This document shows positions 2,531 through 32,188 of a DNA stretch of 64,000 nucleotides, piece by piece. This DNA is from Phocaeicola salanitronis DSM 18170 (GTDB lineage Bacteria > Bacteroidota > Bacteroidia > Bacteroidales > Bacteroidaceae), in contig NC_015164.1 in assembly GCF_000190575.1 (NCBI RefSeq), forward strand, positions 992,001-1,056,000, in the 5' to 3' direction. A program made the translations under genes and the position numbers. Every line of letters starts with the position of its first letter. Positions within the stretch are counted from its first letter, which is position 1. The notes under the pieces were generated by a model that did no database searches, was not told where the DNA came from, and worked only from the letters and a program-made list of their open reading frames with translations.

Positions 2531-2649
2531 ACCCAACTGATGTTTAAAGTTAAACCATAAATTATCTATGCACAAAATTACACATTGTCTGCCTATTCCC
2601 GGCTTTCAAATGTTTTATACAAGGATTGTCTTTTGTCTCTTTAGGTCTC

Positions 2650-2678
2650 ATTTGTTACCAAGTTGGGTGTCATTTGTT
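2650..2678 (-). promoter_or_regulatory. Candidate HTCS operator pair upstream of GH31
   Basis: Two copies of ATTTGTT (plus strand 2650-2656 and 2672-2678) are spaced exactly 22 bp apart, and their flanks also match (TCATTTGTTA in both). The distal copy overlaps the HTCS stop codon. The pair starts 120 bp upstream of the GH31 ATG. A pair with the same word, orientation and spacing lies 122 bp upstream of susC. Direct repeats two helical turns apart are what a dimeric AraC-type output domain would need. Seen: the repeats. Inferred: the regulator. Confidence 0.55.
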
Positions 2679-5600
2679 ATTTACCCTCTTTTTCCTGATA
2701 GGCAGAGGGCAAAACGCCAAATTCCTCCTTAAAGTAACGGCTGAAATATTTAGGGTTGTTAAAACCTACTTCATAGGCAATTTCCGACACGTGCAGCTGG
2801 CTTTCACGCAACAACTGGGCTGCTCTTTTCAACCGGATAACCCGGATAAACTCAATGGGAGTCTTACCGGTAATCTGCAACAACTTCTTATAAAGGTGCA
2901 CACGGCTCATCCCCAGTTCACGGCTCAATTCCTCTACCGACAAATCGCTTCTCGAAATGTTTTCTTCCACATATTTCACAGCCTTCTCTATCAGCTTTTC
3001 ATCCAAGGACGTAATGAGTATTTCGCTCGGAGCCGGGTCTATGGTCGATGTTTGTGCAGACCGATGATAGCGGCTCAATTCTATCAGTTTCCGGATGCGC
3101 AACACCAATACAGTCATGTTGAAAGGTTTGGTCACATAGTCGTCCGCTCCCGTCTCCAGTCCTTTCACTTTCGATTCCACCGCCTGACGCGCCGTCAGCA
3201 GGATAACCGGGATGTGTGCCGTACGCTTGTCTCCTTTTATCAGCCTGCACAGTTCGTTTCCATCCATACCGGGCATCATCACATCGCTGATGACCAAATC
3301 AGGCTGTAACTCCTGTATCTTAGACAAAGCCTCTTGCCCGTTCGAGGCAACCTCTACCCGGTATTGCAATTCCAGACTATGCCGCATAAACAACCGGAAA
3401 TCCTCGTTGTCATCCACGACAAGCAAAAGCGGGAAATCCTTCCGGTCGGTTGACGCCATTGCCGTCTCCTGCCCTTCATCCATAGGCACACATACCGGTT
3501 TAGGCAATTCTGCCTTTACGTCGACATGCCTTACCGGCAAGCACACCACAAATACTGCTCCCGTACCGATGTTATCAAAGACTTCCACCGTACCGTCATG
3601 CAGCCTGACAAAATCCCGCACCAGGCTCAAGCCGATGCCGCTTCCCGTCATTTCATCCTGCCCCTTATGCTCTGTCTGGTAAAAACGCTCGAAGATATGT
3701 TCCTTTTCACCGTCGGGGATGCCGATTCCTGTATCTGAAACCTTTATCTCGAATACGTTCGAATCGCCTTCCACATACTCCAGCATCACGGTGACACGTC
3801 CGCCCTCAGGAGTAAACTTAAAGGCATTGGAAAGCAGGTTCATCACCACCTTCCCTATCTTGTCGGCATCGAAAGCCATCGAAAACGCATCCACCCCCGA
3901 AAAGAAAGAAAACCGGATATGCTTCTTGTCTGCCATTGACAAAAACGAATTGCAGACCTCATGGATATACCCCACAATATCTCCTTCCGACAAAGACAGG
4001 TGATGTCCGCTCATCTCTCCTTTCCGGAAGTCCAGCAACTGGTTGACCAACATCAACAGACGCTGCGCATTGCGGTACATCAGCTGCAACACGGTGCGCT
4101 TCGATTCATCATCTGCCGTTTTCTTCAACAAATCTTCCAGCGGAGCAATAATCAAAGTCAATGGCGTACGCAATTCGTGGCTGATGTTGGTAAAGAAACG
4201 GAACTTCATCTGATTGATTTCCTCCTTCCGGGCTGCTTCTTGCTCTATCTGCTGCATGCGGAACTTTTCGCGTTCACGCTTCAAAGTCAAACGCCGCGCA
4301 AACAACAATGCACTTATGCCCATAATCACATAAAGCAGGTAAGCCCACCACGACAGCCAGAAAGGTGGATGCACAATCAATTTCAGTTGTGCCATCTCCT
4401 TGCTTTCATAGCCATCGCTATTGACCGCCTTCACTTTCAAGGTATAAACGCCATGATTCAGATTCGTAAATATAAGCCGGTAAGCACCTGCCGGAAGCGA
4501 CAACCAGTCCTTACCGATTCCTTCCAGTTTATACCGGAACAATGTCTTTTCCGGCAAGATGAAATTATCCGTAGCCAGTTCTATGGTAAAAATATTCTGC
4601 CTGTAGTCCAATTCCACCTTACGGACCTTGTTCAAGTCTTCGGGCAATATCAGATTGCCTTCATACGTTTTGCCTACCTCCACCTCCTTGTCAAACAAAG
4701 ACAAGCCGGAGAACAAGACATTCGGCAGCTGTGTGTTGTAACTGATTTCACCCGGATTAAAAATATTCAAGCCATAAAGTCCTCCCGCCACAATTGTTCC
4801 GTCCCTCAAGGTCTTGATGGAACGCAAGTTGAAATCGCAGTTCTGAAGCCCGTCCGCATTATCATATACATGCGGTTCAAACGAATAGTCTTCTTCACCC
4901 TGACGCGACACTTTGATATGAACCATCCTCCGTGTCGATGATACCCACAGATTATGCCCATGGTCTTCAGCAATCCCCGAAATCATCTCCCCTTCCTCGC
5001 CTGTAATTTCGGGAAAATCTCTCAAGACTTGAGATTTCGGGTCATACATTTTCAATCCTTCAAGAGTGGCAATCCATACCAGCCCCCGGCTGTCTCCAAA
5101 TACCTGGTTGACCCCAAAATCGTTTCGCTCTCCCGACATCGACGGCACCTTGTAAATCGTCCTGTCCTGCAAGTTCATGCATGCTACACCCACCGTACCA
5201 ATGACCAGCGTATTGTCGGGCAAAAGGCAAAGCGAATTAATCAGGTTGTCGGGCAAATCCGAATTGGCAGTCGTGTAGGTTTCCATTTTACCAGTTTGCG
5301 GATGAAAGCATTGCATCCCTGCATCCAGATACCCAATCCACAGGTTACCTTCCCGGTCTTCCACCAAGTCCCAGACATTGTTACTCGACAAGCCATCCGC
5401 CATGGTATACCGGACTGTCTTTCCCTTATCCAGGCAATACAATCCGCCATTGAAAGTGCCAGCCCATAATTTCCCGTCACGTGCTTTCAACAGTGCAACA
5501 ATCGGATTCGAATCAATCCGCCGGGAACCATATTCCTCAAACTTGCGTGTCTTGACATTCCATAAAAGCAACCCGTCATCGTTGGTTCCCAGCCACAACC

Positions 5601-6687
5601 GATGCGCATCTTCCTGTTCGATGCACGTAATATCGCCCAAAGACTGGAAATGAAACTTGAAAATACTTTCTCCGTAATACGAAATACCTTTCTTGTAAGT
5701 ACCTGCCCATACCAAACCGTTACGGTCGACATAAAGCTGATACACCGTATTATGGCACAAGCTACGTTCATCGTCTGCATGATTTGTCAGATTCACGACC
5801 TCGCCAGTCTTTTTGTCGAACACGTCAATGCCCTTGTAATCCTTTGCCAGCCAAATGCGTCCGGCCTTATCCTGCGCCACCGCATGCACAAAGTCTGTCT
5901 GATGCCTCCACGGAGCCGCCCAGTCATCGCGCCAGCGTCCGGTTGGCACATCATATACCCACAGCCCCAACACGCTGTATATCCACACACAGTCATCAGC
6001 ATCCGTAAAAAGCGAAAACTGAACGTATTTCCCCTTCGGAAGTTGAGCCGGTATATCATCTTTTTTCCATTTCAGATTCAGTTCGTCACGCCCGATGCAG
6101 ACCAGCAACCCATTATCATACAACAACAAAATCCCGTCACGGCACTCTCCCACCACACTGATACCCGATACAGGCAAGCCGTTTTCCCGCAATACAAAGA
6201 CTTTCGGCTCTTCTCCTTGTTTATAGCGGTAACACCCCTCTCCGGCAACATACAGCCACGTATATCCTTTCTTGTCTACATAAACATACAACGGATTTTT
6301 AGCGTTGCTGCCCAATTGTTTCATAAATCCGCTCAAATCATTGATAAAAATCTCTTTATCTTTATCAAACAAAGCATATTCACGTTCTGTCTTTATCCAA
6401 AGCTTGCCTTCGGGACTCTCACAAATATTCGCTACCACATTATCGGGCAACGAATACGGGTCATTATTCAAATGCCGGAACACGCGGAAAGTATACCCGT
6501 CATAACGGTTCAACCCGTTCCGCGTACCGAACCACATAAATCCGTCCCGATCCTGATAAATAGAATAAACCGTATTGCTGGAAAGCCCGTCGGCTACTTC
6601 CAAATGCTTGAACATATAGCGGTGTGCACGACCTCCGGCACATGCCAGTATAATAAACAATGCAATAAAAATCTGTTTTTTCAGCAT
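2677..6687 (-). CDS. Hybrid two-component system (HTCS) regulator of the polysaccharide locus
   Basis: A one-protein sensor and transcription activator of 1336 residues. A signal peptide (about 1-21) is followed by two runs of two-component propeller repeats (for example FMWFGTRNGLNRYDGYTF), a Y_Y_Y domain (about 680-760) and one membrane segment (about 772-795). Next come the HisKA domain with His837 in ISHELRTP, the HATPase domain with DTGIGIP and GSGIGLSL near residue 1015, the receiver domain with phospho-acceptor Asp1135 in SDVMMP, and a C-terminal AraC-type helix-turn-helix (about 1210-1335). The periplasmic sensor would bind an oligosaccharide, most likely a xyloglucan fragment given the neighbours, and the AraC domain would switch on the SusC and glycosidase promoters. 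Length and order are typical of the family. The long opposite-strand frames under this gene are coding shadows. Confidence 0.96.
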   Translation of the reverse strand: MLKKQIFIALFIILACAGGRAHRYMFKHLEVADGLSSNTVYSIYQDRDGFMWFGTRNGLNRYDGYTFRVFRHLNNDPYSLPDNVVANICESPEGKLWIKTEREYALFDKDKEIFINDLSGFMKQLGSNAKNPLYVYVDKKGYTWLYVAGEGCYRYKQGEEPKVFVLRENGLPVSGISVVGECRDGILLLYDNGLLVCIGRDELNLKWKKDDIPAQLPKGKYVQFSLFTDADDCVWIYSVLGLWVYDVPTGRWRDDWAAPWRHQTDFVHAVAQDKAGRIWLAKDYKGIDVFDKKTGEVVNLTNHADDERSLCHNTVYQLYVDRNGLVWAGTYKKGISYYGESIFKFHFQSLGDITCIEQEDAHRLWLGTNDDGLLLWNVKTRKFEEYGSRRIDSNPIVALLKARDGKLWAGTFNGGLYCLDKGKTVRYTMADGLSSNNVWDLVEDREGNLWIGYLDAGMQCFHPQTGKMETYTTANSDLPDNLINSLCLLPDNTLVIGTVGVACMNLQDRTIYKVPSMSGERNDFGVNQVFGDSRGLVWIATLEGLKMYDPKSQVLRDFPEITGEEGEMISGIAEDHGHNLWVSSTRRMVHIKVSRQGEEDYSFEPHVYDNADGLQNCDFNLRSIKTLRDGTIVAGGLYGLNIFNPGEISYNTQLPNVLFSGLSLFDKEVEVGKTYEGNLILPEDLNKVRKVELDYRQNIFTIELATDNFILPEKTLFRYKLEGIGKDWLSLPAGAYRLIFTNLNHGVYTLKVKAVNSDGYESKEMAQLKLIVHPPFWLSWWAYLLYVIMGISALLFARRLTLKREREKFRMQQIEQEAARKEEINQMKFRFFTNISHELRTPLTLIIAPLEDLLKKTADDESKRTVLQLMYRNAQRLLMLVNQLLDFRKGEMSGHHLSLSEGDIVGYIHEVCNSFLSMADKKHIRFSFFSGVDAFSMAFDADKIGKVVMNLLSNAFKFTPEGGRVTVMLEYVEGDSNVFEIKVSDTGIGIPDGEKEHIFERFYQTEHKGQDEMTGSGIGLSLVRDFVRLHDGTVEVFDNIGTGAVFVVCLPVRHVDVKAELPKPVCVPMDEGQETAMASTDRKDFPLLLVVDDNEDFRLFMRHSLELQYRVEVASNGQEALSKIQELQPDLVISDVMMPGMDGNELCRLIKGDKRTAHIPVILLTARQAVESKVKGLETGADDYVTKPFNMTVLVLRIRKLIELSRYHRSAQTSTIDPAPSEILITSLDEKLIEKAVKYVEENISRSDLSVEELSRELGMSRVHLYKKLLQITGKTPIEFIRVIRLKRAAQLLRESQLHVSEIAYEVGFNNPKYFSRYFKEEFGVLPSAYQEKEGK

Positions 6688-7159
6688 AATAAGATGAAAG
6701 GCTTTGTTTGTTTTCGATTACAAAAGAAACAAAAAAACGAGAAAAAAGCAAGCGCACCCGTTTTTTTCTAAGAAGCTGTTTTGAATTTATCGTGCGCTGA
6801 TTTGGATGAGTTTTTGAGGCATTTCCGCTTGTGTGATGAGGAAGATAGCGGGCTATCTGACGAAGAACAGAAGCGGAAAGGACCAAAAAATCGCCCAAAG
6901 CACACACGAAAAAGGATACATCAAGCCAAGAAAAACTTTTTGGAGAAATTCAAAACAGCTTCTAAATGAACCTTGCCTTTCACCCCATGCCGGATACGCC
7001 GAAGCAACCGTTACGGTTTGCCTTTTCGGACCGTATACGTCCACAGACATGAAGGCAACAGCAAAAGACACAGGCTTTCGGACATTTTCTTCCTGCTGTA
7101 AGAACAAAAGGGACAACCGGCGTGTTATATCTATAGAACCAATTAAAAACCAATAAGTA
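6688..7159. other. 472-bp divergent intergenic region
   Basis: Separates the HTCS gene (leftward) from the FimB-like lipoprotein gene (rightward). It holds a MITE-like element at 6772-6962. No convincing TAnnTTTG box was located for either gene, and no open frame outside the element looks coding. Confidence 0.6.
6769..6965. mobile_element. MITE-like element, copy 1 (with target duplication)
   Basis: A 191-bp element (6772-6962) with perfect 17-bp terminal inverted repeats, GAAGCTGTTTTGAATTT at 6772-6788 and its complement at 6946-6962. It is flanked on both sides by TAA (6769-6771 and 6963-6965), a 3-bp target duplication. Inside, arms TTTCCGCTT (6822-6830) and AAGCGGAAA (6871-6879) enclose a small hairpin GATAGC-GG-GCTATC. 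There is no transposase; the short frame inside is not a credible gene. A diverged sibling lies at 52198-52369. Ends and a TNA-type duplication are reminiscent of IS5-family groups, but the parent element is not identified. Confidence 0.75.
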
Positions 7160-8125
7160 ATGAAAAAATTAGCATTCTTGACAGTACTTGCCCTATTCGT
7201 GACAAGCTGCCACAACGATGACACTCCGGTAGCTCCCGAAAACCCGGCATCCGACCTGATCAGTCCTGCCATGTACATGGGCATATTCACCCGTGACGGA
7301 AACAAACCTTTTACAGGAGTACTGAGCGTAGCTCCCTGCAACGAAAGCACATCCATTTATTATGGAAATTATGTAAACCAGAAACTGACACCTTTCCATG
7401 GATATTATTTCATCAAAGACGGTTCTGTTTATCCCAATGCAAACAACCAGGAAGTAAGCCTGCCTGCCGGTACATACGACATGGTTTATTGGGGCACACC
7501 CCAGTATACCGAACCCATTTACGCTTATCCGAATGTACGAGAACCCAACTACAGCATCGGTGAAGACTTTGCCCAACAAGACTTCAGCCTGCTTGCCATT
7601 TCCAATGACACGACCTATTATCCCACTTTCGACCTCGTACATGCCCGCCGCCCGGTAAATGTCGGGACAGAAGACCTGGACGCAGACCTGCACCGGGTAG
7701 TGAGCGGACTGAAAGTAACGTTAAAAGACAACAAAGGCAATGCTTTGAGCAATAATATCGAAAACGTAGAAGTACGGGTAACACACATTGCGGAAAAGCT
7801 GAACTTTTACACCGCCCAGCCTGAGGGAAAAGCCTGCACTGTAGCTTTCCCGCTGGTCCGCTCTGACGACGACAAAGAAATGAGTAACGGCACAGTGATG
7901 ATGTTTCCTTCTTTCGGCACCCCCGAACTCCAAGTCTTCATCACACTTGCCAACGGAAAGACCAAGACGTTCAAACAAACACTGAATGCCCCACTGGAAG
8001 CCAACAACAAGCTGACACTTGATATCAGCATCGGCAATATCCTGGAAGAAGAAGATTCGGGCAGTTTCACCGTTGACGAATGGAACGAGTCAAACGAAGA
8101 AATCAATGTCCCTATCCTGGAATGA
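7160..8125 (+). CDS. FimB/Mfa2-like fimbrial-subunit lipoprotein
   Basis: A 321-residue predicted lipoprotein: MKKLAFLTVLALFVTSC gives a lipobox with Cys17. The rest has no membrane segment and looks like the two beta-sandwich lobes of FimB/Mfa2-type anchor subunits. Supporting features are an N-lobe segment LPAGTYDMVYWG, a mid-protein LHRVVSGLKVTL segment where the second lobe would begin, and a C-terminal FTVDEWNESNEEINVPIL. In the known family such proteins anchor or cap surface fimbriae. No fimbrillin gene is adjacent; the gene stands alone between the HTCS gene and the GH5 gene and is transcribed against the Sus genes. A glycan-binding or adhesive role in the locus is possible but is only inferred from position. 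Family assignment is by overall pattern, so it is moderate. Confidence 0.6.
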   Translation: MKKLAFLTVLALFVTSCHNDDTPVAPENPASDLISPAMYMGIFTRDGNKPFTGVLSVAPCNESTSIYYGNYVNQKLTPFHGYYFIKDGSVYPNANNQEVSLPAGTYDMVYWGTPQYTEPIYAYPNVREPNYSIGEDFAQQDFSLLAISNDTTYYPTFDLVHARRPVNVGTEDLDADLHRVVSGLKVTLKDNKGNALSNNIENVEVRVTHIAEKLNFYTAQPEGKACTVAFPLVRSDDDKEMSNGTVMMFPSFGTPELQVFITLANGKTKTFKQTLNAPLEANNKLTLDISIGNILEEEDSGSFTVDEWNESNEEINVPILE

Positions 8126-8196
8126 ACGGCAGGTATGAAGGAACCATTTGGTTTTGCATGTAAGTCATATCGTTCTTCCAGAAAGCATACTTTTAT

Positions 8197-8268
8197 GTTC
8201 TCGATATCAAAACCGTATGGTTTTGAATTGGAAACCGTACGTTCTCGATATGGAAACCGTACGGTTTT
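8197..8268. repeat. Tandem palindrome-containing repeat
   Basis: Two 28-bp copies at 8197-8224 and 8241-8268 share GTTCTCGATAT followed by AAACCGTA and GGTTTT, at a 44-bp period. A partial copy (GGAAACCGTAC, 8230-8240) lies between them and GAAAACCATA follows. Each unit contains the near-palindrome AAACCGTACGGTTT. It could be a protein-binding cluster or a transcription-end structure. Confidence 0.65.
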
Positions 8269-8394
8269 CACATGAAAACCATAAATAGAAGCTGGATGAA
8301 ACGGTAATGTAACCCAAATACGGAAACAACTGTTCCGGTGAGAAATAAAAAACGGATGAGGAATACACTTACCCGACAAAACAATATATTCATG

Positions 8395-8526
8395 TTGAAT
8401 ATCCGCAAACATCCCATGTAGGGGCGTATCGCATACGCCCGAATACGCCAACTAATCCACGTGAATGTTTTCGGGGCGTATGCAATACGCCCCTACAAGG
8501 CAATTGGGTGAAATGCGGATATTCAA
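8395..8526. repeat. Nested inverted repeat, 132 bp
   Basis: Outer arms TTGAATATCCGCA (8395-8407) and its exact complement (8514-8526) enclose inner arms at 8417-8440 and 8473-8497. The inner arms are GTAGGGGCGTAT..ATACGCCC-type sequences that pair with about two mismatches. There is no coding capacity. It is a non-autonomous repeat or a bidirectional end structure between convergent genes. Confidence 0.7.
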
Positions 8527-8653
8527 ATTTTTATTCTATGCATGCCCATTGAATACGGACATAAAAAACAGAGGCAGACTTCACAATCTGCCTCTGCCTA
8601 TAAATCTCAGCATATCTATGCTGAAACACGCAGGTATAAAATCAGCAAACTTC

Positions 8654-10441
8654 TCATTGCGGCGCACTGTCGTATACCGACTGCAAGGTGTATGATGCAT
8701 CCTCGGTAAAGATGCCCCGTTTCATCACGTCAATCACTTCCTGAGCATTATTCAGCATCTCGCCTGTAGCGTGATTGAAAAGTGCCCATGATTGTGTTCC
8801 GGTTCCGTCTCCTCCTGCATCCCAATAAAATGGAGGCATCCCATAATCTTTCGCTGCCTTACATACATATTCCAAGTAATACAAACGGAACGATTCCGAC
8901 AAGTCATCCGCACGGTGTACGCATCCCATCTCGCCGATATAGGCAGGAATACCTTGGTCGATGAACGTTTCTTTCATCTTGGCAAACTGTCCGGTCACAT
9001 TGTCTTCATCGCCCCAATCCGCTTTCAGCGACGGGTCTGCGGTATGCCCCCATTGCGAATAAATATTGTCGGCATTCTCGGTATAGTCTATCGGGTCGTA
9101 GAAGTGAACGGCTACCATCAGCCGGTTATCCACCACATCCTGCGGCAAGACAAAGTTTTCTACCGTCAGGTCGATGTTTGTCACATACCCCGGCACGCCC
9201 AGGTAACGGGTCTGGTTGTTTCCACCCGTAGCACGCACGGCATCTACAAACACCTGATTCCATTCATTCAGTACGGCATATTGTCTGCCGCCATCCGTAC
9301 GGTTGTCTCCCCAGCCCCAACTTCCGTCATGGATTTCGTTCATGGCTTCGAACACCAGGAAGTTTCCTTTGTCTGCAAACCGGTTGGCTATTTGGGTCCA
9401 CATGGCAGCCAGCTGTGCCTTTACCGCACTATTGACCGTCTCATCCGTTGCCGCATCCTTGATATCCAGCCAATACTGGCTGTTCGCACCATCGTGGTGA
9501 ATGTTGATAATGGCATTCAGTCCGGCACTCTCGGCATAGCCTACCACTTCTGCCACCCGGTTCAAATAAGTCTCGTCGATGGTATAATCGGGAGCTTCGC
9601 CCACATGTCCCAGCCACGTAACCGGAATACGGACAGAAGTGAAACCGGCATTTGCCAAAGCATCAAACAAGGCTTGCGTGGCAGCCGCATTTCCCCAAGA
9701 GGTCTCATCTGCCACTCCATTATTATGTGCATCCAACTGATTGCCTAAGTTCCATCCCAGTCCCAAGCTGACCGCTATTTCCAACGGCGTTTCTCCCGAC
9801 ACGGCTGCAGCCTGTCCGGCAGCCTGTGTTACAGTAACGGTTTCCGTCAAGTCGCCTAACGTAAACGTAATGGTTCCGGTGCGTTCCGTGCCGTGATTGG
9901 CAGATACGGTAAAATGCAAGGTATATTCCGTCATTGCCCGCGCATCGGTCACTTCTGCCTCAGCTATCCACGAGTCATTGATTGTATAGGCATAATCGCC
10001 ATTGGTGGTCAGCGTAATGCTCAGCGCACCTCCTGCTGCCGGCATATCGTATGCAGTCTGTGCCACAATCAAACCGTCTCCGGCAGTCTGTGTCACCTGC
10101 ACCGAAGCTGTAAAGCTTCCAGCCACCACCGAAAGCGTAGCCACGCGGTCATCGGTTTCCGAATTAGCATCTACCGTTACATTGTAGGTATAAGTTCCTC
10201 TTTCGGTTACACTCGCGAATGACACGTTGCACCAAGTCTGATTACTGGTCACTTGTGGTTCAACCGAAGACAAGACAGAAAGCGTGAGTGTGTCACCGGA
10301 TTTAGGGAAAGTCATTTCCGTAGCAGAAATTTGCGTTTCTCCCGTATAGCCTCCGCCTTCGTCATCCGAACAAGAAGCAAACAAGGCTATCCCCGTCAGC
10401 AACAGAAAGAATAATGTCAGACAATTTCGCATAGTTTTCAT
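8654..10441 (-). CDS. GH5 endo-beta-1,4-glucanase (xyloglucanase-like) with two BACON domains
   Basis: Predicted surface lipoprotein (Cys24 in LFASC) of 595 residues that would cut the xyloglucan backbone outside the cell. Two BACON domains follow (about 38-120 and 122-210, each ending in a VTVTQ- or VQVTQ-type strand). The GH5 barrel runs from GLGWNLGNQLDAH near residue 225. The candidate acid/base is Glu369 in AMNEIHD and the candidate nucleophile is Glu504 in GEMG. The sequence resembles subfamily 4, which includes endo-xyloglucanases; subfamily was judged by eye. An alternative start is the ATG three codons later. It is the last gene of the susC-susD-SGBP-GH5 row (gaps of 15, 112 and 72 bp), so it is probably co-transcribed and under HTCS control. 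BACON domains may hold the enzyme away from the membrane. Confidence 0.92.
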   Translation of the reverse strand: MKTMRNCLTLFFLLLTGIALFASCSDDEGGGYTGETQISATEMTFPKSGDTLTLSVLSSVEPQVTSNQTWCNVSFASVTERGTYTYNVTVDANSETDDRVATLSVVAGSFTASVQVTQTAGDGLIVAQTAYDMPAAGGALSITLTTNGDYAYTINDSWIAEAEVTDARAMTEYTLHFTVSANHGTERTGTITFTLGDLTETVTVTQAAGQAAAVSGETPLEIAVSLGLGWNLGNQLDAHNNGVADETSWGNAAATQALFDALANAGFTSVRIPVTWLGHVGEAPDYTIDETYLNRVAEVVGYAESAGLNAIINIHHDGANSQYWLDIKDAATDETVNSAVKAQLAAMWTQIANRFADKGNFLVFEAMNEIHDGSWGWGDNRTDGGRQYAVLNEWNQVFVDAVRATGGNNQTRYLGVPGYVTNIDLTVENFVLPQDVVDNRLMVAVHFYDPIDYTENADNIYSQWGHTADPSLKADWGDEDNVTGQFAKMKETFIDQGIPAYIGEMGCVHRADDLSESFRLYYLEYVCKAAKDYGMPPFYWDAGGDGTGTQSWALFNHATGEMLNNAQEVIDVMKRGIFTEDASYTLQSVYDSAPQ

Positions 10442-10513
10442 AGGTTAATCATTGATTAGTAGAAAGGCGCAGGCCCATGCAGTTCTATCCGCATACACCT
10501 GCGCCCACAAATA

Positions 10514-12319
10514 TTACAGAATAGAAAGATTATCAATCGTAACCGTTATGGCATCCGGATTTTCGATATCACTGAACATCTCCTGAATATCGATGCAGAA
10601 AACAATCACACCGTTGTAGGCTGCCGAAGGGCTGTAGCGAATCGTATAAGTACCGTCACCCTGTACGGTTGTCGTACCTTGACCTTCGCCTACCGACGGC
10701 CACCAGCCGTCAGCCGTACACATCAGTTGGGCGGTATAAGCATTGGTTGCAGCCGCACCGGTCAGTCCACTGATTGTAAACGTCAGCTCCATTGAATAAT
10801 CGAACACAATGGAAGCTGGGTCAAACGGTTGGTTGGAAGCCGTGGAACCATACATGTTATACAATTCGATACGGAAATTATTCGTAGCTTCTTCCAGATG
10901 CCCACAAACAATTTTGCTATTGTCTACGGCAATCTCCGTAGCCGTCGGCGTACCGCTTCCGCTACCGGCATTCGGCAAGAAGTGGTAAGCCAAGTATTCG
11001 TCTTTCTCCATACTGCGGTTGCCTAACCACATACCCATCACGCTGTTTCCTGCCGTTTCAATGCTCAAGATACGCAATTGGTTTTCTGCCGTAGCACTGA
11101 ACATGATGTCACCGCCACCGATATGATAAGTCGGCACACCGGCACTGAACGTATAGATACCGTCTTCATCCAAAGTATAAGTACCGCTGGTAGTCGTTCC
11201 GTCCGGCATTTCGAACGTATAAGTCATATCCGCCGAGTTCAGTGTCATACTCAGGTTTTCCAATCCGTCTACTACCGTAGCCCAGTCGGGATAATTGCCT
11301 GCAGTAAAGTTGTTCATCAGACTTCCGTCCAGATTAGCCCAGTCAAACGGCACATCAGGCGACATGGTCCACTTGATTTCGCTTGTAACCACTTCTGAAA
11401 CCATATCCTGCCAGCCGTCGGGCAAAGTAGGTTCGGGGTCGGGCTGGTCTTCGGGTACATAATTGTCAGCATATTCTTTCGATACGAAATTCCATATCAG
11501 CCACCAAGGTCCTTCACTGTTGTCACGCATCACGCCGATACGCAAATGATTCTCATCCAGTTCCAACAGTTGCAAATCTCTACGCCAGTTTGTCGTACGG
11601 TCTGTCCAACCGGGTGTATGCAGCAAGTCACAATCAGTAAAAGTTATGGTATGCGAGTCGGTATTCAACATGAATGTACCGGTCTGGGTTTCACCCGAAG
11701 AAGAATTATACACCGTCACATTTGCACCGCCTTGCAGGTTGAACGTCATGGTGCTTTCCCAAATGGCATCATCGCCTGTATGTCCTACTCCCGGATCCCA
11801 ATTGGCAGTCCAGTTGTTCCAAGTCACCGTACCCGAAGGGTCAGCGTATGTCAGTTCTCCGGCTGCAAATCCGTATTCTCCGTTATCGAAAATCCAGGTT
11901 TTCTCCTGATCTACCCCTCCGGTCAGATACGTCCACAGGTCATCATTCACAAAGCCAGCATAGAAGTCGTCAATGGTAAAAGTCGCAGTAGGACCATAAA
12001 CCACCCCACCACGGGTCTGCACACCGAAACGCACTTCATATTCTCCCTCGAAAGGCATCTGCAAAGTCACTTCGGCTCCTTGTGCACGTCCTTGCGGATG
12101 TTCCCAGCAAACCTGATAACTGGAAGGCATCAGGCTTTTCAAATAAACGATATTCGGATTTTCCGAATCGTGAGTAATGGTATAGGCAATGCCTTCTACC
12201 AAATCTTCAGAAGCTACATCCGGAGCTTCCAAATCGTATGAATCTGGCGTACAGGCAGCAATCATACCCATCAGCATCGCCAGCAACGCCATTTGCAATG
12301 TATGTATCAGTTTATTCAT
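10514..12319 (-). CDS. Surface glycan-binding lipoprotein (SGBP-B position)
   Basis: A 601-residue predicted lipoprotein (Cys23 in MGMIAACTP). After an Ig/PKD-like N domain (about 35-115), two related modules follow at about 120-285 and 300-450. Each has a STMTFNLQ or LSMTLNSA strand, a TGTFML or SGTYTL strand, and an ending like LRIGVMRDN..WWLIWNF or LRILSIETA..MGMWLGN. These look like duplicated lipocalin-type barrels. The last 140 residues form a separate beta-sandwich-like domain ending TVTIDNLSIL, as in carbohydrate-binding modules. Position directly after susD matches the glycan-binding protein of known xyloglucan loci, though those have Ig-like domains, so the architecture differs. Role as a glycan capture protein is inferred. 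It has no catalytic motif I recognise. Confidence 0.7.
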   Translation of the reverse strand: MNKLIHTLQMALLAMLMGMIAACTPDSYDLEAPDVASEDLVEGIAYTITHDSENPNIVYLKSLMPSSYQVCWEHPQGRAQGAEVTLQMPFEGEYEVRFGVQTRGGVVYGPTATFTIDDFYAGFVNDDLWTYLTGGVDQEKTWIFDNGEYGFAAGELTYADPSGTVTWNNWTANWDPGVGHTGDDAIWESTMTFNLQGGANVTVYNSSSGETQTGTFMLNTDSHTITFTDCDLLHTPGWTDRTTNWRRDLQLLELDENHLRIGVMRDNSEGPWWLIWNFVSKEYADNYVPEDQPDPEPTLPDGWQDMVSEVVTSEIKWTMSPDVPFDWANLDGSLMNNFTAGNYPDWATVVDGLENLSMTLNSADMTYTFEMPDGTTTSGTYTLDEDGIYTFSAGVPTYHIGGGDIMFSATAENQLRILSIETAGNSVMGMWLGNRSMEKDEYLAYHFLPNAGSGSGTPTATEIAVDNSKIVCGHLEEATNNFRIELYNMYGSTASNQPFDPASIVFDYSMELTFTISGLTGAAATNAYTAQLMCTADGWWPSVGEGQGTTTVQGDGTYTIRYSPSAAYNGVIVFCIDIQEMFSDIENPDAITVTIDNLSIL

Positions 12320-12345
12320 AATGTTTCGATTTAAAAAATGGTTTG

Positions 12346-12425
12346 TTAGTTCTTAAGTTTTTGAATTTATCAGTTTTGTAAGCCTCGTCAACTCAAAAAC
12401 TTAAAAACTTAAGAACTCAAAAACT
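12346..12425. repeat. AAACTT-rich inverted repeat
   Basis: Between the SGBP gene and susD, TTCTTAAGTTTTTGAATT is mirrored by AAAAACTTAAGAACTC. The same AAAACTTA/AAACTCA vocabulary recurs at 49264-49290, 52022-52055, 52168-52196 and 52372-52392, so it is a dispersed family. It could fold in the mRNA and lower expression of the downstream SGBP and GH5 genes relative to susCD. Confidence 0.6.
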
Positions 12426-12431
12426 TATTAT

Positions 12432-14162
12432 TCACCAACCTGCATTTTGCTTCAATACACCGTTCGACAAGGTAATCTGATTATTCGGAATCTGCATCAA
12501 ACCTTGTTTGCTAGTGATATTTGAAGCCGTAACGCTTACATTATCCGGATTGCCACCACTAACTACTGATGTATTTCCTGCAATCTGAGAAGCGGCATAG
12601 TCCACACCTTGACGGAGCAAGTCCCAGTAACGCTGCCCTTCGAAAGCAAACTCCAGCATCCGTTCGTTCATGATATTTTCCTGCGTAGCGGATACCTGAC
12701 GATAGTAAGTAGACAATACCAGTTCACCGTTCTCGTCCTCTTCGGTAAAGGCGCGCTGGCGCACCTGATCCAAGTATTCCTGCGCATTGTTGCTGCCCAG
12801 TTCTGCTGCCATAAGCAAGACATCGGCATAACGCATCACCACAAAATCCTGATATTGGGAAACCATATAATCACCCCCGCTTCCCAATCCTGTGGTTTCA
12901 TCGGTCAACGCCCATTCTCCGGTCGATTCGTTCTGTTCCCATTTCGACATCGGAGTATATTTCTTGATAGTATAGCCCGTATATTCACGCTGGTCATTAT
13001 AACCGTTTTCATAATTCGGATCTTCAGCAATGCCCTCGCTTAAAAGGTTCACCATAGACGCTTCACGACGTGTATCTCCGGTATTGTAAGCCATCCACAT
13101 TTTCGGATTGACCGTACAGATACCCCAACCTCTTCCGTAAGGTGTCCAATACACATTGATACTACGGATGCCAACATTCACCAGCCAGCGGTTTCCATCA
13201 TTATTTCCGTTATAATCAGAGGTATAATTAAACTTCTGTGCCAATACGGTTTCTTCATTACCCCGACCGGCGTAAGTTGAATGTTGAGTATAACCGCTCG
13301 CGGCATCGCCTTCCCACCAAGTGGAAGCGGGTACCCACAGATTTTTGAATTGCGGAACCAATGCATATTCGCCCGAAGAAATGACATCTTCCAAACCTTG
13401 CAATACAGAAGCACGGGTCACACCTTCTACACTTGGTTCTTTTCCGTAATAACCAGTATAGTACAAATATACACGGGCTAGCAGAGCTTTGGCAGCATAC
13501 TGGGTGATATGCCCGTCGTTGTTCGCCGCATCGCTCTTCGGGTAAGCCGAAGCCGGAATGTTTTCAGCGGCATAAAGCAAATCGCTGAAAATAACATTAT
13601 ACACTTCATCCGGTTCAGCCTGCGGTCGGTTCTCGTTCACCGGTTCGGTAAACAAAGGAATATTCCCCCATAAACGCACCATATCGAAATAGCACAAAGC
13701 ACGCAGAGCACGACATTCACCCATGTAAGTACCTCTTGTCTCCTCACTTGTCCAAGAAATCTGTTCTTCATGCGCAATCAGTTCATTGCAACGGTACACC
13801 GCCGCATAATATCCCGTCCAATCCCCTTCGAAAAGATTTAAATCAGAAGGAGATTGCGTCTGATCGAAACGGTCAATAATTTGATAATTACGTGCATCCG
13901 AAACGCCAGCCCCTCCAAAACACTCGTCAGCCATCAGCTCTGAAGCCATATAAAACGAAGTGCCGTTCGAAACCGTACTTTGCCACCCGTCATAGCATCC
14001 TATCAAAGCCCGGTATGCATCGCTTTCCGTCCGATAGAAATTGCCAGTAGTAGATTCTACTTTCGACTCCACATCCAGGAAATCAGCCGTACACGAAGCC
14101 AAGCCCATTCCAGCCAACCCCAATGCCATTATATAGATTTTATAGTTGTTCATATTCTTCAA
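12432..14162 (-). CDS. SusD/RagB-family glycan-binding lipoprotein
   Basis: Predicted surface lipoprotein of 576 residues with Cys24 in GLASCTADFLDVE. It has the family layout: an N-terminal FYRTESDAYRALIGCYDGW segment, tetratricopeptide-like helices (AALRALCYFDMVRLWGNIPLFTEPV-type region), and a C-terminal RMLEFAFEGQRYWDLLRQG segment. It forms the lid on the SusC transporter and binds the oligosaccharide, here most likely xyloglucan fragments. It follows susC with a gap of 15 bp, which is the usual tight pairing. The exact ligand cannot be read from sequence. Confidence 0.95.
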   Translation of the reverse strand: MKNMNNYKIYIMALGLAGMGLASCTADFLDVESKVESTTGNFYRTESDAYRALIGCYDGWQSTVSNGTSFYMASELMADECFGGAGVSDARNYQIIDRFDQTQSPSDLNLFEGDWTGYYAAVYRCNELIAHEEQISWTSEETRGTYMGECRALRALCYFDMVRLWGNIPLFTEPVNENRPQAEPDEVYNVIFSDLLYAAENIPASAYPKSDAANNDGHITQYAAKALLARVYLYYTGYYGKEPSVEGVTRASVLQGLEDVISSGEYALVPQFKNLWVPASTWWEGDAASGYTQHSTYAGRGNEETVLAQKFNYTSDYNGNNDGNRWLVNVGIRSINVYWTPYGRGWGICTVNPKMWMAYNTGDTRREASMVNLLSEGIAEDPNYENGYNDQREYTGYTIKKYTPMSKWEQNESTGEWALTDETTGLGSGGDYMVSQYQDFVVMRYADVLLMAAELGSNNAQEYLDQVRQRAFTEEDENGELVLSTYYRQVSATQENIMNERMLEFAFEGQRYWDLLRQGVDYAASQIAGNTSVVSGGNPDNVSVTASNITSKQGLMQIPNNQITLSNGVLKQNAGW

Positions 14163-14177
14163 TTTTAAGATGATTCG

Positions 14178-17100
14178 TTAGAATTTCAAATTTACGCCCA
14201 CCAAGAACGTACGCGGACGCGGATAATAGCCCAAGTCAATGCCCGATACCCAGTCAGAAGTACCGTAACCGATTTCCGGATCCATGCCGTCATACTTGGT
14301 AAAAGTAAAGGCATTCTGTACTTGGAAGTACAAACGGGCCTGGCTAATAGCCTTCAGGTTGATGAGTTTCGCAAAGTCGTATCCGATGGTGATGTTGCTG
14401 ATGCGCAGATAGTCGCCATCTTGGATATAGAGGTCTGAAAATTGCCAGTTAATATTGGTTTCCGTCACACGCGGGATACGATTACTGGTACCTTCACCCG
14501 TCCAACGTTCCAATATAGCCGAGGTATAGTTCGAGTGGCTATTAGCATGATTGCGGTAGCTTTGTACAATCTGGTTGCCGGCAGCTCCATATGCGTTCAA
14601 GGCAAAATCGAAGTTTTTGTAACTGAACCCGAGGTTGAATCCATACGTGAAGTCGGGCGTACCGTTACCCAAGTCCACCTTATCGTTATCATCAATTATA
14701 CCGTTATGGTCTTGGTCTACGTATATGACATCACCCGGCTGGACATCAGCTTGCAAGATGCCGTTCCCTGCTGCACGCCAATCTTCAATTTGTTGTTTGT
14801 TCTGGAAGATTCCTGCGGTCTGATATCCCCAGAAATAACCTATCGGATGACCGTTAGAAGCGCGATAAAATTCTGGAGTATTGTCATAAAGCATATTCAC
14901 ATCGCCATGAATGATACCGTCCTCAGTCGGTATATTTCCCACCTTATTCTTATTATACGCACCGTTGACACCTACATTATATTGGAAATCACTTCCGATT
15001 TGGTCGTTCCAAGTCAAAGCTAATTCGATACCGGTATTCTTTACATCACCGCCATTGATATACGGAGCGCCCGTACCTGCCGTAGCAAGAATCGGAGCTT
15101 CTACCAGCCAGTCTTTAGTCTTCTTGATATAGAAGTCGGCGGTCAAACTCAAGCGGCTCCGCAAGAAACGTGCATCAATACCGATGTTGGTCTGTTCAGA
15201 TGTTTCCCATGTTACGTCTTCATTGGCAAGACGGCTGGGATAAGCTCCCCAATAACCGGACTGGGCATCGGCTCCCACCTGATTGCCGAACAGGTAATGC
15301 GTATTGCTCGAAGTAATCGGAGCAGTGTACTGGTAATTGTCAATGTTCTGGTTACCTACCTGGCCCCAGCTGACACGGAGTTTCAAGAAATCCAGCCAGT
15401 CGTGCGTGTCTTCCATAAAAGCTTCGTTTGAAATCGTCCAACCTGCCGATACTGAAGGGAACACGCCATAACGGTTTCCACGAGCGAAACGGGAAGAGCC
15501 GTCGGTACGTACCGTAGCGTTAATCATATAGGTTTCTTTCCAGTTCCAGCCGAAACGGGCAAAATAAGAAACCGTACGTGTCTCATCATTCGGATGACCT
15601 GCCGCACCCAAACCGTTATCGGTACTGGTAGCCGTACCGTTATCTACATACGCATGATCCCAATCATCGAACCCGTCACGCAAAATACCATTTGTAGCAC
15701 GCAAATACGTACCGTTATATCGGCTGATTTCCATACCCAGCAAGGCATTGAAGGCATGTTCGCCCACCGTCCAGTCGTATGTAGCTGTATTCGTCCATGT
15801 CATCGTCAATCCGTGCGACATGTTTTGGGCAGCACTGGTACGTGTGTTGTTGAAACTATAAATAGAGAACTGATACAGCGGAGAAAAGCTGCGGTATTCG
15901 TTCGTGCTGTAAACAGCACCGAATACGGTACGGAACTTCAGGTTCTTGACAGGCTGTAATTCGGCATACACATTGCCCGAGAATGTCACGTCCTTGTTCT
16001 CATTGTTGCTGTTGGTCATCATGCTTCCATAAGGGTTGCCATCGGCATTATACCAATCCGAATTGGTCGTATCGTTATAAGGTGAATCATAAATGTTGTT
16101 ATCGCTATAAATAGGTGCTAACGGAGAAGTCCCGAACGCGCCGCGAAGCGTATTGTTATATTGGTTACCTACTGAAATACCGTTGTTCATCTTATAAACG
16201 AAGCTGACCTGCTCTCCTACCTTCAACAAGTCGGAATCCTTGAAAAGCTTGTGTTCCGAATTGATACGGAAGTTGTAACGTTCGTAATTCGATACGTCCT
16301 TACCACCTACGATACCTTCCTGGCTCATATACCCTAACGACATCGCGTAAGTAGAAGTTTCCGAACCTCCGGTAATGCCCAGCGTATAACTCTGTGTCTG
16401 GGCATTGTTCTGGAACATCGAGTTTACCCAGTCGGTATCATACACATTGCCGTTGGCATCGTAAATGCTCTCGTACGAGCTCCAGTCGTAAGGCGCATTA
16501 CCCGAATTGACCGCCTGTTCGTCCATAATCATCATGTACTCCTGCGCGTTCAGCATGTCCGCCTTGCGTGCCTGGGTCTGCCATCCGTAGTAGGCATCAA
16601 ACGAAATCTGCGCCTTGCCAGCCTTACCGCTCTTGGTGGTTATCAATACCACACCGTTGGCAGCCTGTGCACCGTAGATAGCAGCCGATGCAGCATCCTT
16701 CAACACATCGATGCTTTCGATATCGGCTGGATTCAACGTAGAGATATCACCACCTACTCCATCAATCAGATACAAAGGTTCAGCATTGCCCACCGTACCC
16801 AAACCACGGATACTTACTTTCATCGATTCGCCCGGCTGACCAGAGGTAGACGAAATGTTCACACCCGGCGTCTGTCCTTGCATCGCCTGCAAGGGGCTGT
16901 TGGTATTCATCTTCGCCAGCGTCTCGCCTTTCACCTGCACCGTGGCACCGGTGACCAGCTTCTTTTTCTGCACACCGTAACCTACTACAACTACTTCTTC
17001 CAGCGTCTCGCTATCCTCGTTCATCACAATGTTTAAGGTACGCTGGTTCGTAATTTCCACTTCCTGGGTTACGAAACCGATATACGAGAACACCAACGTC

Positions 17101-17354
17101 TGTCCGGGCTGCACCGTTACGGTGTAGTTCCCGTCCAGGTCGGTAATGGCTCCATTGGATGTTCCTTTCACCTGCACGCTGACGCCGATAAGCGGCAACT
17201 GGTCAGCGGCCGAAGTAACAACACCCGAAACAGTTAGATTTTCTTGTGAAGCCGGAGCGGCGTTCACACCACTTGCAGGGATGCATAGCAACATCGCCAT
17301 TGCAAGAAAACACATGTGCACGAATGTGCACTTTCTGAATAAGTGTTTACTCAT
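14178..17354 (-). CDS. SusC-family TonB-dependent outer-membrane transporter
   Basis: A 1058-residue transporter for oligosaccharide import. After the signal peptide (about 1-33) a carboxypeptidase-regulatory-like domain (about 40-125, VSGVVTSAADQLPLIGVSV onward) leads to the TonB box EEVVVVGYG near residue 128. The plug follows (VSIRGLGTVGNAEPLYLIDG, then IESIDVLKDAASAAIYG and GVVLITTKSG), then a 22-strand-type barrel ending in FLVGVNLKF with a terminal Phe. Length is typical. It starts the Sus operon, and its upstream region carries a -7 box (TATATTTG) and an ATTTGTT pair like the one in front of GH31. Confidence 0.97.
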   Translation of the reverse strand: MSKHLFRKCTFVHMCFLAMAMLLCIPASGVNAAPASQENLTVSGVVTSAADQLPLIGVSVQVKGTSNGAITDLDGNYTVTVQPGQTLVFSYIGFVTQEVEITNQRTLNIVMNEDSETLEEVVVVGYGVQKKKLVTGATVQVKGETLAKMNTNSPLQAMQGQTPGVNISSTSGQPGESMKVSIRGLGTVGNAEPLYLIDGVGGDISTLNPADIESIDVLKDAASAAIYGAQAANGVVLITTKSGKAGKAQISFDAYYGWQTQARKADMLNAQEYMMIMDEQAVNSGNAPYDWSSYESIYDANGNVYDTDWVNSMFQNNAQTQSYTLGITGGSETSTYAMSLGYMSQEGIVGGKDVSNYERYNFRINSEHKLFKDSDLLKVGEQVSFVYKMNNGISVGNQYNNTLRGAFGTSPLAPIYSDNNIYDSPYNDTTNSDWYNADGNPYGSMMTNSNNENKDVTFSGNVYAELQPVKNLKFRTVFGAVYSTNEYRSFSPLYQFSIYSFNNTRTSAAQNMSHGLTMTWTNTATYDWTVGEHAFNALLGMEISRYNGTYLRATNGILRDGFDDWDHAYVDNGTATSTDNGLGAAGHPNDETRTVSYFARFGWNWKETYMINATVRTDGSSRFARGNRYGVFPSVSAGWTISNEAFMEDTHDWLDFLKLRVSWGQVGNQNIDNYQYTAPITSSNTHYLFGNQVGADAQSGYWGAYPSRLANEDVTWETSEQTNIGIDARFLRSRLSLTADFYIKKTKDWLVEAPILATAGTGAPYINGGDVKNTGIELALTWNDQIGSDFQYNVGVNGAYNKNKVGNIPTEDGIIHGDVNMLYDNTPEFYRASNGHPIGYFWGYQTAGIFQNKQQIEDWRAAGNGILQADVQPGDVIYVDQDHNGIIDDNDKVDLGNGTPDFTYGFNLGFSYKNFDFALNAYGAAGNQIVQSYRNHANSHSNYTSAILERWTGEGTSNRIPRVTETNINWQFSDLYIQDGDYLRISNITIGYDFAKLINLKAISQARLYFQVQNAFTFTKYDGMDPEIGYGTSDWVSGIDLGYYPRPRTFLVGVNLKF

Positions 17355-17439
17355 GGTACTTTGTTTAATAGTTAAAATTACATTCTTCTACATGTCCCGG
17401 AAAAGCCACGCCACATGCGTTTCTCTCATCAAGACGCTA

Positions 17440-17447
17440 CAAATATA
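17440..17447 (-). promoter_or_regulatory. -7 box of susC promoter
   Basis: Reads TATATTTG on the minus strand, a full match to the Bacteroidetes TAnnTTTG box. It lies 86-93 bp upstream of the susC ATG. No good -33 TTTG is seen, which fits an activator-dependent promoter. Confidence 0.55.
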
Positions 17448-17475
17448 TTACAGATTGTAGAAAAAGAAGGGATGC

Positions 17476-17504
17476 ATTTGTTTCCCGATAGGACATGATT
17501 TGTT
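17476..17504 (-). promoter_or_regulatory. Candidate HTCS operator pair upstream of susC
   Basis: ATTTGTT at 17476-17482 and 17498-17504 (plus-strand reading), exactly 22 bp apart, each followed by TTCC or TCCC-type sequence. The pair starts 122 bp upstream of the susC ATG and 29 bp upstream of the -7 box. It matches the pair in front of GH31 in word, orientation, spacing and distance. Confidence 0.55.
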
Positions 17505-18474: not shown

Positions 18475-23173
<4,699 letters not shown>

Positions 23174-23445: not shown

Positions 23446-25794
23446 ATGAAACATCTAAAAAACATTGCACTGGCTTCTGTTTTGTGTGCAGGAACCTGTT
23501 TAAATGCAGAAGGACAAACCGTCCCGCCTGCCATCCCTTCTGACCCCGAAATCGAAGCCAACATCCAAAATTGGCTCAAGAAAATGACCATCGAGGAAAA
23601 GATAGGTCAGATGTGTGAAATCACCATCGATGTAGTGACCGACTTCGAAGCGAGCCAAAAGGACGGGTTCACCCTGGACAAAGCCAAGCTGGATACCGTT
23701 ATCGGGAAATACAAGGTCGGCTCGCTCCTGAACGTTCCCCTGAGCATTGCCCAGCCGAAAGAGAAATGGGCGGAAGCCATCAGGCAGATTCAGGAACTTT
23801 CGATGAAGGAAATCGGAATCCCCTGCATCTATGGCGTAGACCAGATACACGGAACCACTTATACTCTTGATGGAACCCTGTTCCCGCAAGGTGTCAACAT
23901 GGGAGCCACATTCAACCGGGACCTGGTAAAGCGTGAAGCCGAAATCTCGGCATACGAAACCAAAGCGGGATGCATCCCCTGGACGTATGCTCCCGTAGTA
24001 GATTTGGGAAGAGACCCGCGCTGGTCGCGCATGTGGGAGAACTATGGAGAGGACTGCTACGTGAATGCGGAAATGGGCAAAGCGTCGGTCATCGGCTTCC
24101 AAGGCGAAGACCCGAACCACATCGGCAAATATAACGTAGCCGCCTGTATGAAACACTATATGGGCTATGGCGTTCCGGTTTCGGGCAAGGACCGTACGCC
24201 CTCTTCCATCTCGCGGAGCGACATGCGCGAAAAGCACTTCGCGCCTTATCTGGCAGCCGTCCGCCAGGGGGCGTTGAGCGTGATGGTCAACTCGGGCGTG
24301 GACAACGGCATGCCCTTCCATGCCAACAGGGAATTCCTGACCCAATGGCTGAAAGAAGACTTGAACTGGGACGGGCTGGTGGTAACAGACTGGGCGGACA
24401 TCAACAACCTGTGTACCCGCGACCACATTGCCGCGACCAAGAAAGAAGCCATCAAGATAGCCATCAACGCCGGCATTGACATGTCGATGGTGCCATACGA
24501 AGTGAGCTTCTGCGATTACCTGAAAGAACTGGTACAGGAAGGCGAAGTGCCCATGAGCCGTATTGACGATGCGGTAGCGCGTGTCTTGCGCCTGAAATAC
24601 CGTCTCGGGCTCTTCGACAAGCCTTACTGGAGCACCGGAGACTATCCGGAATTCGGTTCAAAAGAATTTGCTGATGTAGCCCTCCAGGCAGCCGAAGAGT
24701 CGGAAGTGCTGCTTAAGAACGAAGGGGGCATCCTGCCGCTCGCCAAAGGCACGAAGATTCTTCTGGCTGGCCCGAACGCCAACTCCATGCGGTGCCTGAA
24801 CGGAGGCTGGTCATACAGCTGGCAAGGGCACCGTGCCGACGAATGCGCCCAGGCATACAACACCATCTACGAAGCCCTCTGCAACAAGTTCGGCAAAGAG
24901 AACATCCTCTACGAACCGGGCGTGACTTACGCTCCCTACAAGAACGATAACTGGTGGGAAGAGAACACGCCGGAAATTGACAAGCCGGTAGCCGCCGCTC
25001 AAAATGCCGATGTCATCATCGCTTGCATCGGCGAGAATTCCTATTGCGAGACTCCGGGCAACCTGACCGACCTGAACCTTTCGATGAACCAGCAAAACCT
25101 GATGAAGGCATTGGCTGCAACCGGCAAGCCCGTCATCCTGATTCTGAACGAAGGCCGCCCGCGCCTGATAAAGGATATCGAACCGCTTGCCAAAGCCGTA
25201 GTAAACGTAATGCTTCCGGGCAATTACGGAGGAGACGCCCTGGCAAACCTGCTTGCAGGCGACGCCAATTTCAGCGGGAAGATGCCGTACACCTATCCGA
25301 AACATATCAATGCCCTCGCCACCTACGACTACAAGCCGTGCGAGAACATCGGACAGATGGGCGGGAACTACAATTATGATTCGGTCATGGATATCCAATG
25401 GCCTTTCGGATTCGGACTGAGCTACACTACCTATAAATACAGCAACCTGAAGGTAGACAAGGTCCAATTTACCGCCGATGATGAGCTGACCTTCACCGTA
25501 GACGTGACCAACACGGGAAGCGTGGCAGGCAAGGAAAGCGTATTGCTTTACTCGAAAGACTTGGTGGCAAGCAGCACCCCCGACAACATCCGCCTGCGCA
25601 ACTTCGAGAAGGTTTCCCTGAATCCGGGCGAAACCAAGACCGTAACCATGAAGCTGAAAGGAAGCGACCTGGCTTTCGTCAACTATTACGGAAAATGGAC
25701 GCTGGAGAAAGGTGACTTCAAAGTGAAGTGCGGCGACCAGTGGATAGACCTGCAATGCACACAAACCAAGGTGTGGGATACCCCTAACCGATAA
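23446..25794 (+). CDS. GH3 beta-glucosidase
   Basis: Secreted 782-residue enzyme (signal peptide about 1-24) that would cleave terminal beta-glucose from the debranched backbone. The GH3 barrel contains KHYMGYG and the nucleophile Asp315 in LVVTDWADI. The second alpha/beta domain begins near [15 protein letters not shown] and has the [12 protein letters not shown] region. A fibronectin-III-like C-terminal domain (about 665-770, [19 protein letters not shown]) ends the protein. Three-domain organisation and length are typical of Bacteroides GH3 beta-glucosidases, including those of xyloglucan loci. The long opposite-strand frames beneath it are shadows of its GC-rich codons. Confidence 0.94.
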
Positions 25795-28807: not shown

Positions 28808-28841
28808 TAGATAGTTGACAAGAAATGAAAGCAAAAAACAA

Positions 28842-32057: not shown

Positions 32058-32188
32058 CCCAAAGAATGATACGCTAAATAAAGGTATGCTTACTTTGCCG
32101 GCTCAGTTATCTGAAACTGCCGATAAAGCATATCTTCGATTTCGAAGGCATATCTGCGGACGGATTTAATACTAAAACAACGAACAAA

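Follow-up and report, generated by a model that had tools for sequence, protein, structure and literature searches.

The promoters of a polysaccharide utilization locus (PUL) in Phocaeicola salanitronis DSM 18170 carry pairs of the 7-base word ATTTGTT (AACAAAT on the coding strands), which very probably are parts of an operator for the AraC-type output domain of the hybrid two-component system (HTCS) regulator encoded in the same PUL. The locus lies in a stretch of 64,000 nucleotides (contig NC_015164.1, positions 992,001 to 1,056,000), hereafter called the window, and comprises genes for GH31, the HTCS, GH5, a protein without a Pfam match, SusD, SusC, a GDSL esterase, GH43, a GDSL-GH95 fusion and GH3. 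The repeats, their conservation in related loci, their co-occurrence with the HTCS across genomes and their quantised register to the promoter are observed in the genomes compared.

A preliminary description of the window had placed ATTTGTT pairs upstream of GH31 (2650 and 2672) and of susC (17476 and 17498), with 22 bp from start to start; these coordinates are right, and the pair occurs nowhere else in the window. Reading of the sequence also bears out the distances to the ATG, namely 120 bp to position 2530 for GH31 and 122 bp to position 17354 for susC, as well as the overlap of the distal GH31 copy with the HTCS stop codon, with which it has two bases in common (TAACAAAT, minus strand). 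The pair noted before GH43, AACATTT at 18475 and AACATCC at 18497, was likewise found, although not as the weaker relative it had been taken for: it belongs fully to the family and, alone among the three sites in the window, fits the strict genus-wide pattern, and the mismatches to the longer consensus given below number 0 at susC, 1 at GH43 and 2 at GH31. Both ATTTGTT pairs and the GH43 pair face operons of this one PUL, and the direct-repeat distance is 22 bp in all three operators, compared with about 21 bp for HTCS operators. Counted over the 4,308,663-bp genome, ATTTGTT-N15-ATTTGTT occurs exactly twice, both times in this PUL, and the reversed-pattern control gives 0. Dinucleotide shuffles contained a mean of 0.01 paired words per window, and 0 of 100 held two or more. 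The longer consensus, allowed up to three mismatches, retrieves from the same genome one stray in addition to the three PUL sites, with 0 in the control.

The repeats of the 7-base word are thus real, but the word, initially treated as the unit, makes up only box A of a half-site with two boxes; further half-sites and the quantised distance to the promoter had escaped notice. On the coding strand the half-site reads AACAWWTnATACC, in which the second box, ATACC, follows the first by one helical turn, and half-sites stand in tandem at 22 bp. In relatives with the same HTCS DNA-binding domain (DBD), the paired motif is kept before GH31, susC and GH43/GH95. Flanks were taken for 21 of 28 HTCS relatives, those of the remaining seven entries (G006, G009, G011, G031, G041 and, twice, G065) being at most 1.5 kb long; a scan of genome contigs for further relatives gave at least 80 loci, mostly distant kinases, from which L006 (operator rows) and 22 loci (motif-agnostic test, see below) were used. 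The fetched neighbourhoods together with L006 and the window provided 19 GH31 regions, G084:C23, G077, G082 and G079 being left out for lack of a usable GH31 start. All 19 have an AACA-N18-AACA pair within 250 bp upstream, the weakest being that of L150. The AACA-AACA spacing upstream of GH31 peaks at 22 bp (17 pairs), with a second peak at 42/43 bp (10 and 7) that is due to the proximal half-site. The other PUL upstream regions (63) hold 21 pairs at 22 bp, no other spacing between 8 and 45 bp accounting for more than 4; on their opposite strand, 4 pairs are spaced by 22 bp. The longer consensus, AACAWWTnATACCC...GAAACAWWT, is based on 20 rows, including one spurious second match in L127, in which A is present at column 9 in 19 rows, T at column 10 in 16, and C at columns 12 and 13 in 16 and 17, respectively. 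The first base of the operator coincides with the second base of the HTCS stop codon in 14 of the 19 GH31 loci, and likewise in G006 and G009. In G031 (L104/L164), L215 and L216, the operator start falls within the HTCS frame, at its 3' end, the last residues of the regulator being spelled by its own operator.

The sequence TAnnTTTG and, with less certainty, a TTTG at -33 have been described as promoter elements (PMC7366714, in excerpt). The former, the -7 box of sigma-ABfr, was found at all three window promoters. In the promoters compared, the distance from operator to this box takes quantised values, for the most part about 57, 77 or 98-100 bp, which would correspond to two helical turns per step. 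In the window, the susC operator consists of two half-sites (57/35), that of GH43 of a dimer site one two-turn step farther out (77/55) with a degenerate proximal site, and that of GH31 of a strong distal dimer site (98/76) with a proximal half-site (34). The -33 TTTG is expected about 19 bp before the -7 box; by reading, none stands at about this distance in the three window promoters, and the GH31 proximal half-site contains a TTTG 30 bp upstream of the -7 box.

The register recurs outside the window. A matrix of the half-site, derived from 16 GH31 distal half-sites of other loci, was applied to 44 non-GH31 -7 boxes of the same loci, and 16 of these scored above 10, all at -56/-57, -77/-78 or -99/-100 (L124, L126 and L128 are near-copies among them). 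When 25 operator matches were chosen genus-wide regardless of promoters, 19 TAnnTTTG boxes were present within 220 bp, starting at 56 (3), 77 (2), 98 (6), 99 (6) and 100 (2). An order-wide search of 393 sampled genomes for the operator followed by TAnnTTTG, the gap being free over 60 positions, gave 11 matches at 57, 77, 97 (2), 98, 99 (4) and 100 (2), and 0 and 1 in reversed controls. These positions were read from match lengths and confirmed for ten matches plus the window's own; the downstream genes, judged by eye, include susC-like and GH31 frames and a GH74-like frame. A family search (301 genomes; reversed control matches in 4) added 11 new loci (L226 being the same place as L214), five of them with a -7 box, at 56, 57, 99, 99 and 99. 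Among 37 promoter units less than 65% identical to each other, 33 have a phase of 14-16 modulo 21, and the remaining four lie at 97 (two) and 89 (two); the binomial p for this phase, 5e-24, is an overstatement, many units being orthologous. In the 97-100 class (24 units, about half of them GH31 promoters), an AACA that was not used in selection stands at -33 to -35 in 21 units and at -56/-57 in 3, and no other unselected AACA offset among those listed occurs in more than 3; by reading, 9 of the 11 units other than GH31 promoters keep the proximal AACA. In L220, half-sites are clearly recognisable at four positions (0, 22, 43 and 65), and the -7 box lies at 100. Such operators look like phased arrays of two to four half-sites, the last of which would lie near the -33 position.

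Direct repeats of 19-24 bp near -7 boxes were also sought irrespective of motif, in 22 HTCS-relative loci and 29 other susC loci of the P. salanitronis genome. They number 16 among 61 boxes versus 2 at control lags of 26-31, an excess that is suggestive, and they have no clear common position among these 61 boxes. In the susC promoter of L192, ATGTACGG repeats at about -57/-37. We tentatively consider it possible, if somewhat less than probable, that at HTCS promoters in general a proximal AraC half-site 33-35 bp before the -7 box replaces the -33 element, that further half-sites are added by whole turns (mostly 21 bp), and that two, three or four protomers would thereby line one DNA face, their number tuning the strength of the operon. 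HTCSs whose recognition words are different, for example that of L192, may obey such a rule as well.

The occurrence of the motif follows that of the regulator. In its strict form it is present in 18 of 61 genomes of the genus (reversed control 0), and when the HTCS was searched for in 60 of these at E <= 1e-250, the motif was found in 17 of 20 HTCS-positive versus 1 of 40 HTCS-negative genomes (Fisher 5e-11). The HTCS-negative exception (L160 in G059) coincides partly with the end of one frame and with the beginning of another, of 207 aa, and lacks a -7 box. At the distant loci L215, L216, L222 and L229, the site stands beside HTCS genes with similar recognition helices. At a contig end of G059 (L212) we also observed a GDSL gene with a xyloglucan-type promoter, although this genome has no HTCS match at E <= 1e-250.

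The regulator combines a Reg_prop/Y_Y_Y sensor, HisKA, HATPase, receiver and HTH_18 in a single chain. Compared by tblastn, its DBD is 84-98% identical among orthologs of the genus, versus 43 to 94% for the aligned part of the whole protein. Identity to 12 other HTCS DBDs of its own genome is 37-47%, and the recognition helices differ; at least one further HTCS domain of this genome (at 1854098) falls outside the comparison. The recognition helices are presumed to be SRVHLYKK and FNNPKYFSRYF. An inhibitory interface between receiver and DBD has been described as S/CHIP-DK, that is, S or C, H, I and P in the receiver loop and D and K in the DBD (PMC11253607, in excerpt). The receiver loop of the window HTCS is AHIP, with alanine at the first position and HIP kept. 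A solved fragment of a 'hybrid two-component system protein' (PDB 12aw) aligns with residues 1086-1334 of the HTCS, which cover the receiver plus the DBD.

These features are consistent with the following mechanism, in which binding by the HTCS, occupancy by a dimer or tetramer and activation are what we infer. The two boxes of each half-site (AACAWWT and ATACC), one turn apart, would be read by the two helix-turn-helix units of one AraC domain, and the protomers of an HTCS dimer would bind head-to-tail on the same DNA face, because half-sites repeat at 22 bp (two turns). The proximal half-site, which starts 33-35 bp before TAnnTTTG and thus just upstream of the expected -33 TTTG, would end about where this TTTG would begin; since it ends there, the bound protomer could contact RNA polymerase, with the HTCS acting as an activator beside the sigma-ABfr polymerase in a class II-like arrangement. 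As for GH31, located just downstream of the regulator gene, an operated promoter of its own would free it from the constitutive low expression that is stated for HTCSs (PMC6874557, in excerpt).

Several observations weigh against assigning the operator to this HTCS. One of the HTCS-positive genomes, G006, scored through L166, which lacks a -7 box and is followed by no frame of 60 aa; L160 and L166 both look like chance matches, and G006 has a relaxed site after its HTCS (L099). Three HTCS-positive genomes, G034, G011 and G041, are without the strict motif. A relaxed site (L139) is present in G034; in G011 (L100) and G041 (L102), whose DBDs are 85-86% identical, the 250 bp that follow the HTCS stop contain no AACA-N18-AACA. 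With the half-site matrix, no operator is detected at the GDSL gene's -7 boxes and no phased site at the GH3 gene, and most GH31 and GH43 promoters have a degenerate third half-site. Among the 25 genus-wide matches, six (L156, L159, L160, L162, L166 and L167) lack TAnnTTTG within 220 bp; three of these have a box that deviates from it at one position, located at 98 (also 64 and 78) in L159, at 56 in L162 and at 57 in L167, and not even such a box precedes the susC-like frame at L156. Six of the 11 new loci of the family search are without an exact -7 box, three lying inside genes. Two promoters (L116 and L212), with a distance of 89 bp, are off the 21-bp grid, AACA at -35 being kept in both. 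Many of the promoters counted are, moreover, orthologous GH31 promoters that share ancestry, and the counts are not independent.

The operator could belong to a different regulator of the same PUL, either a stand-alone AraC-family protein or a global regulator. AraC-type proteins could read such sites, the genome has 46 HTH_18 matches, many of them in short proteins, and G011 and G041 keep a close DBD, yet have no site after the HTCS. Nevertheless, we regard this explanation as improbable, as within the genome the site is almost confined to this PUL, its presence in the genus follows the HTCS (17/20 versus 1/40), and the sites of L215, L216, L222 and L229 lie beside HTCSs with similar recognition helices. 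It is more improbable still that the repeats are core promoter, that is, an unusual upstream element for sigma-ABfr and not a specific operator: a distance to the -7 box that is fixed in all classes would agree with this, but the consensus with up to three mismatches occurs only in the PUL and at one stray position, despite 30 susC-like genes over the family cut-off, and two-box half-sites at 22 bp with varying distance classes suit a dimeric protein better. Chance likeness of two upstream regions, which are AT-rich and in which any word and spacing could have been picked, is negligibly probable, being contradicted by the comparative data, the shuffles, the genome counts, the AACA-N18-AACA pairs in 19/19 GH31 regions and the held-out register test. 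The HTCS-operator reading already proposed in the preliminary description is supported, at the level of sequence, by footprinting, co-occurrence with the HTCS, near-absence elsewhere in the genome and the fixed register to the -7 box.

Among the switches that govern glycan use in gut Bacteroidota, HTCSs form a major class, and the earlier remark that their operators are rarely defined is partly outdated. Direct-repeat motifs with a mean spacing of 21 bp were predicted for 16 Bacteroides thetaiotaomicron HTCSs (PMC3878776, in excerpt; Ravcheev et al., 2013), upstream of susC and enzyme operons, and read as sites of AraC-type HTCS dimers on one DNA face; phosphorylation-controlled binding at two promoters with predicted direct-repeat sites was seen in electrophoretic mobility shift assays (PMC11253607). 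The former motifs resemble those described here in being direct repeats about two turns apart before susC and enzyme operons, but they belong to B. thetaiotaomicron HTCSs, and xyloglucan is absent from the main text as far as available; the parts of PMC3878776 examined describe neither -7 distance classes nor arrays of up to four half-sites. Two-turn direct-repeat HTCS operators have therefore been known as a kind since the 2013 prediction, and the motif and its promoter register are apparently new. In the open-licence literature, as far as its texts were accessible, we found no operator for the regulator of the Bacteroides ovatus xyloglucan utilization locus (XyGUL) and no report of the operator motif, the quantised -7 distance or four-half-site arrays. 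An operator consensus tied to a DBD clade, together with a fixed promoter register, would make regulons readable from sequence; both indicate base changes to test and would supply spacing rules for glycan-inducible promoters in gut commensals. A comparable design is that of araI1-I2, the site of Escherichia coli AraC, where two-box half-sites form direct repeats two helical turns apart and the proximal one adjoins the promoter. The sigma factor and promoter are different there, whereas here the putative reader, a hybrid kinase, is membrane-bound, and the distal dimer is displaced outward in whole turns.

The likely substrate of the PUL is xyloglucan, because the best solved relatives of its GH31 and GH43 are BoGH31A and BoGH43A (5jou, 5jow), enzymes of the B. 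ovatus xyloglucan locus, and the matches of its GH5 include a xyloglucanase (2jep), which is listed below the best solved match, 'Cellulase' 6wqy. The PUL resembles XyGUL in these two enzymes and differs from it by the GDSL-GH95 fusion and in gene order. The genes and the operator parts of the three window promoters are listed in Table 1.

Table 1. Genes of the PUL and predicted operator parts, in window coordinates
Feature	Position	Strand	Sequence	Remarks
GH31	1..2530	-		843 aa within window, continues past window edge; nearest solved structure BoGH31A alpha-xylosidase
HTCS regulator	2677..6687	-		Reg_prop, Y_Y_Y, HisKA, HATPase_c, Response_reg, HTH_18 (AraC type)
GH5	8654-10441			downstream of susC, susD and surface protein
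Surface protein	10514-12319			no Pfam match; role inferred from position
susD	12432-14162			after susC
susC-like TonB receptor	14178..17354	-		followed by susD, surface protein, GH5
GH43	18600..20162	+		nearest solved structure BoGH43A; followed by GDSL-GH95, GH3
GDSL-GH95	20159-23173	+		
GH3	23446-25794			after GDSL-GH95
GH31 distal half-site 1	2666..2678	-	AACAAATGACACC	98 bp before -7 box; two bases in HTCS stop (2677-2679)
GH31 half-site 2	2644..2656	-	AACAAATGAGACC	22 bp from half-site 1
GH31 weak third half-site	2625..2637	-	GACAAAAGACAAT	inferred from register; box A degenerate, weakest of four
GH31 promoter-proximal half-site	2602..2614	-	AACATTTGAAAGC	34 bp before -7 box
GH31 -7 box	2573..2580	-	TAATTTTG	
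susC half-site 1	17492..17504	-	AACAAATCATGTC	57 bp before -7 box
susC half-site 2	17470..17482	-	AACAAATGCATCC	35 bp before -7 box
susC -7 box	17440..17447	-	TATATTTG	
GH43 half-site 1	18475..18487	+	AACATTTCATACC	77 bp before -7 box
GH43 half-site 2	18497..18509	+	AACATCCTGCCCA	55 bp before -7 box
GH43 weak third half-site	18517..18529	+	TACTGAGAATACC	box B alone conserved; 35 bp before -7 box; inferred from register
GH43 -7 box	18552..18559	+	TATCTTTG	

In the GDSL-GH95 gene, a GDSL-type esterase domain and a GH95 catalytic domain are fused in one reading frame. Between GH5 and the HTCS, an Mfa2/fimbrillin-anchor-like gene lies in antisense orientation (7160-8125, plus strand); it is present too in the loci of G056 and G001. 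Farther along the window (28815-35062, plus strand), a UvrD-like helicase gene adjoins a PDDEXK_1 nuclease gene, a pair which we take to resemble one of the AddAB type.

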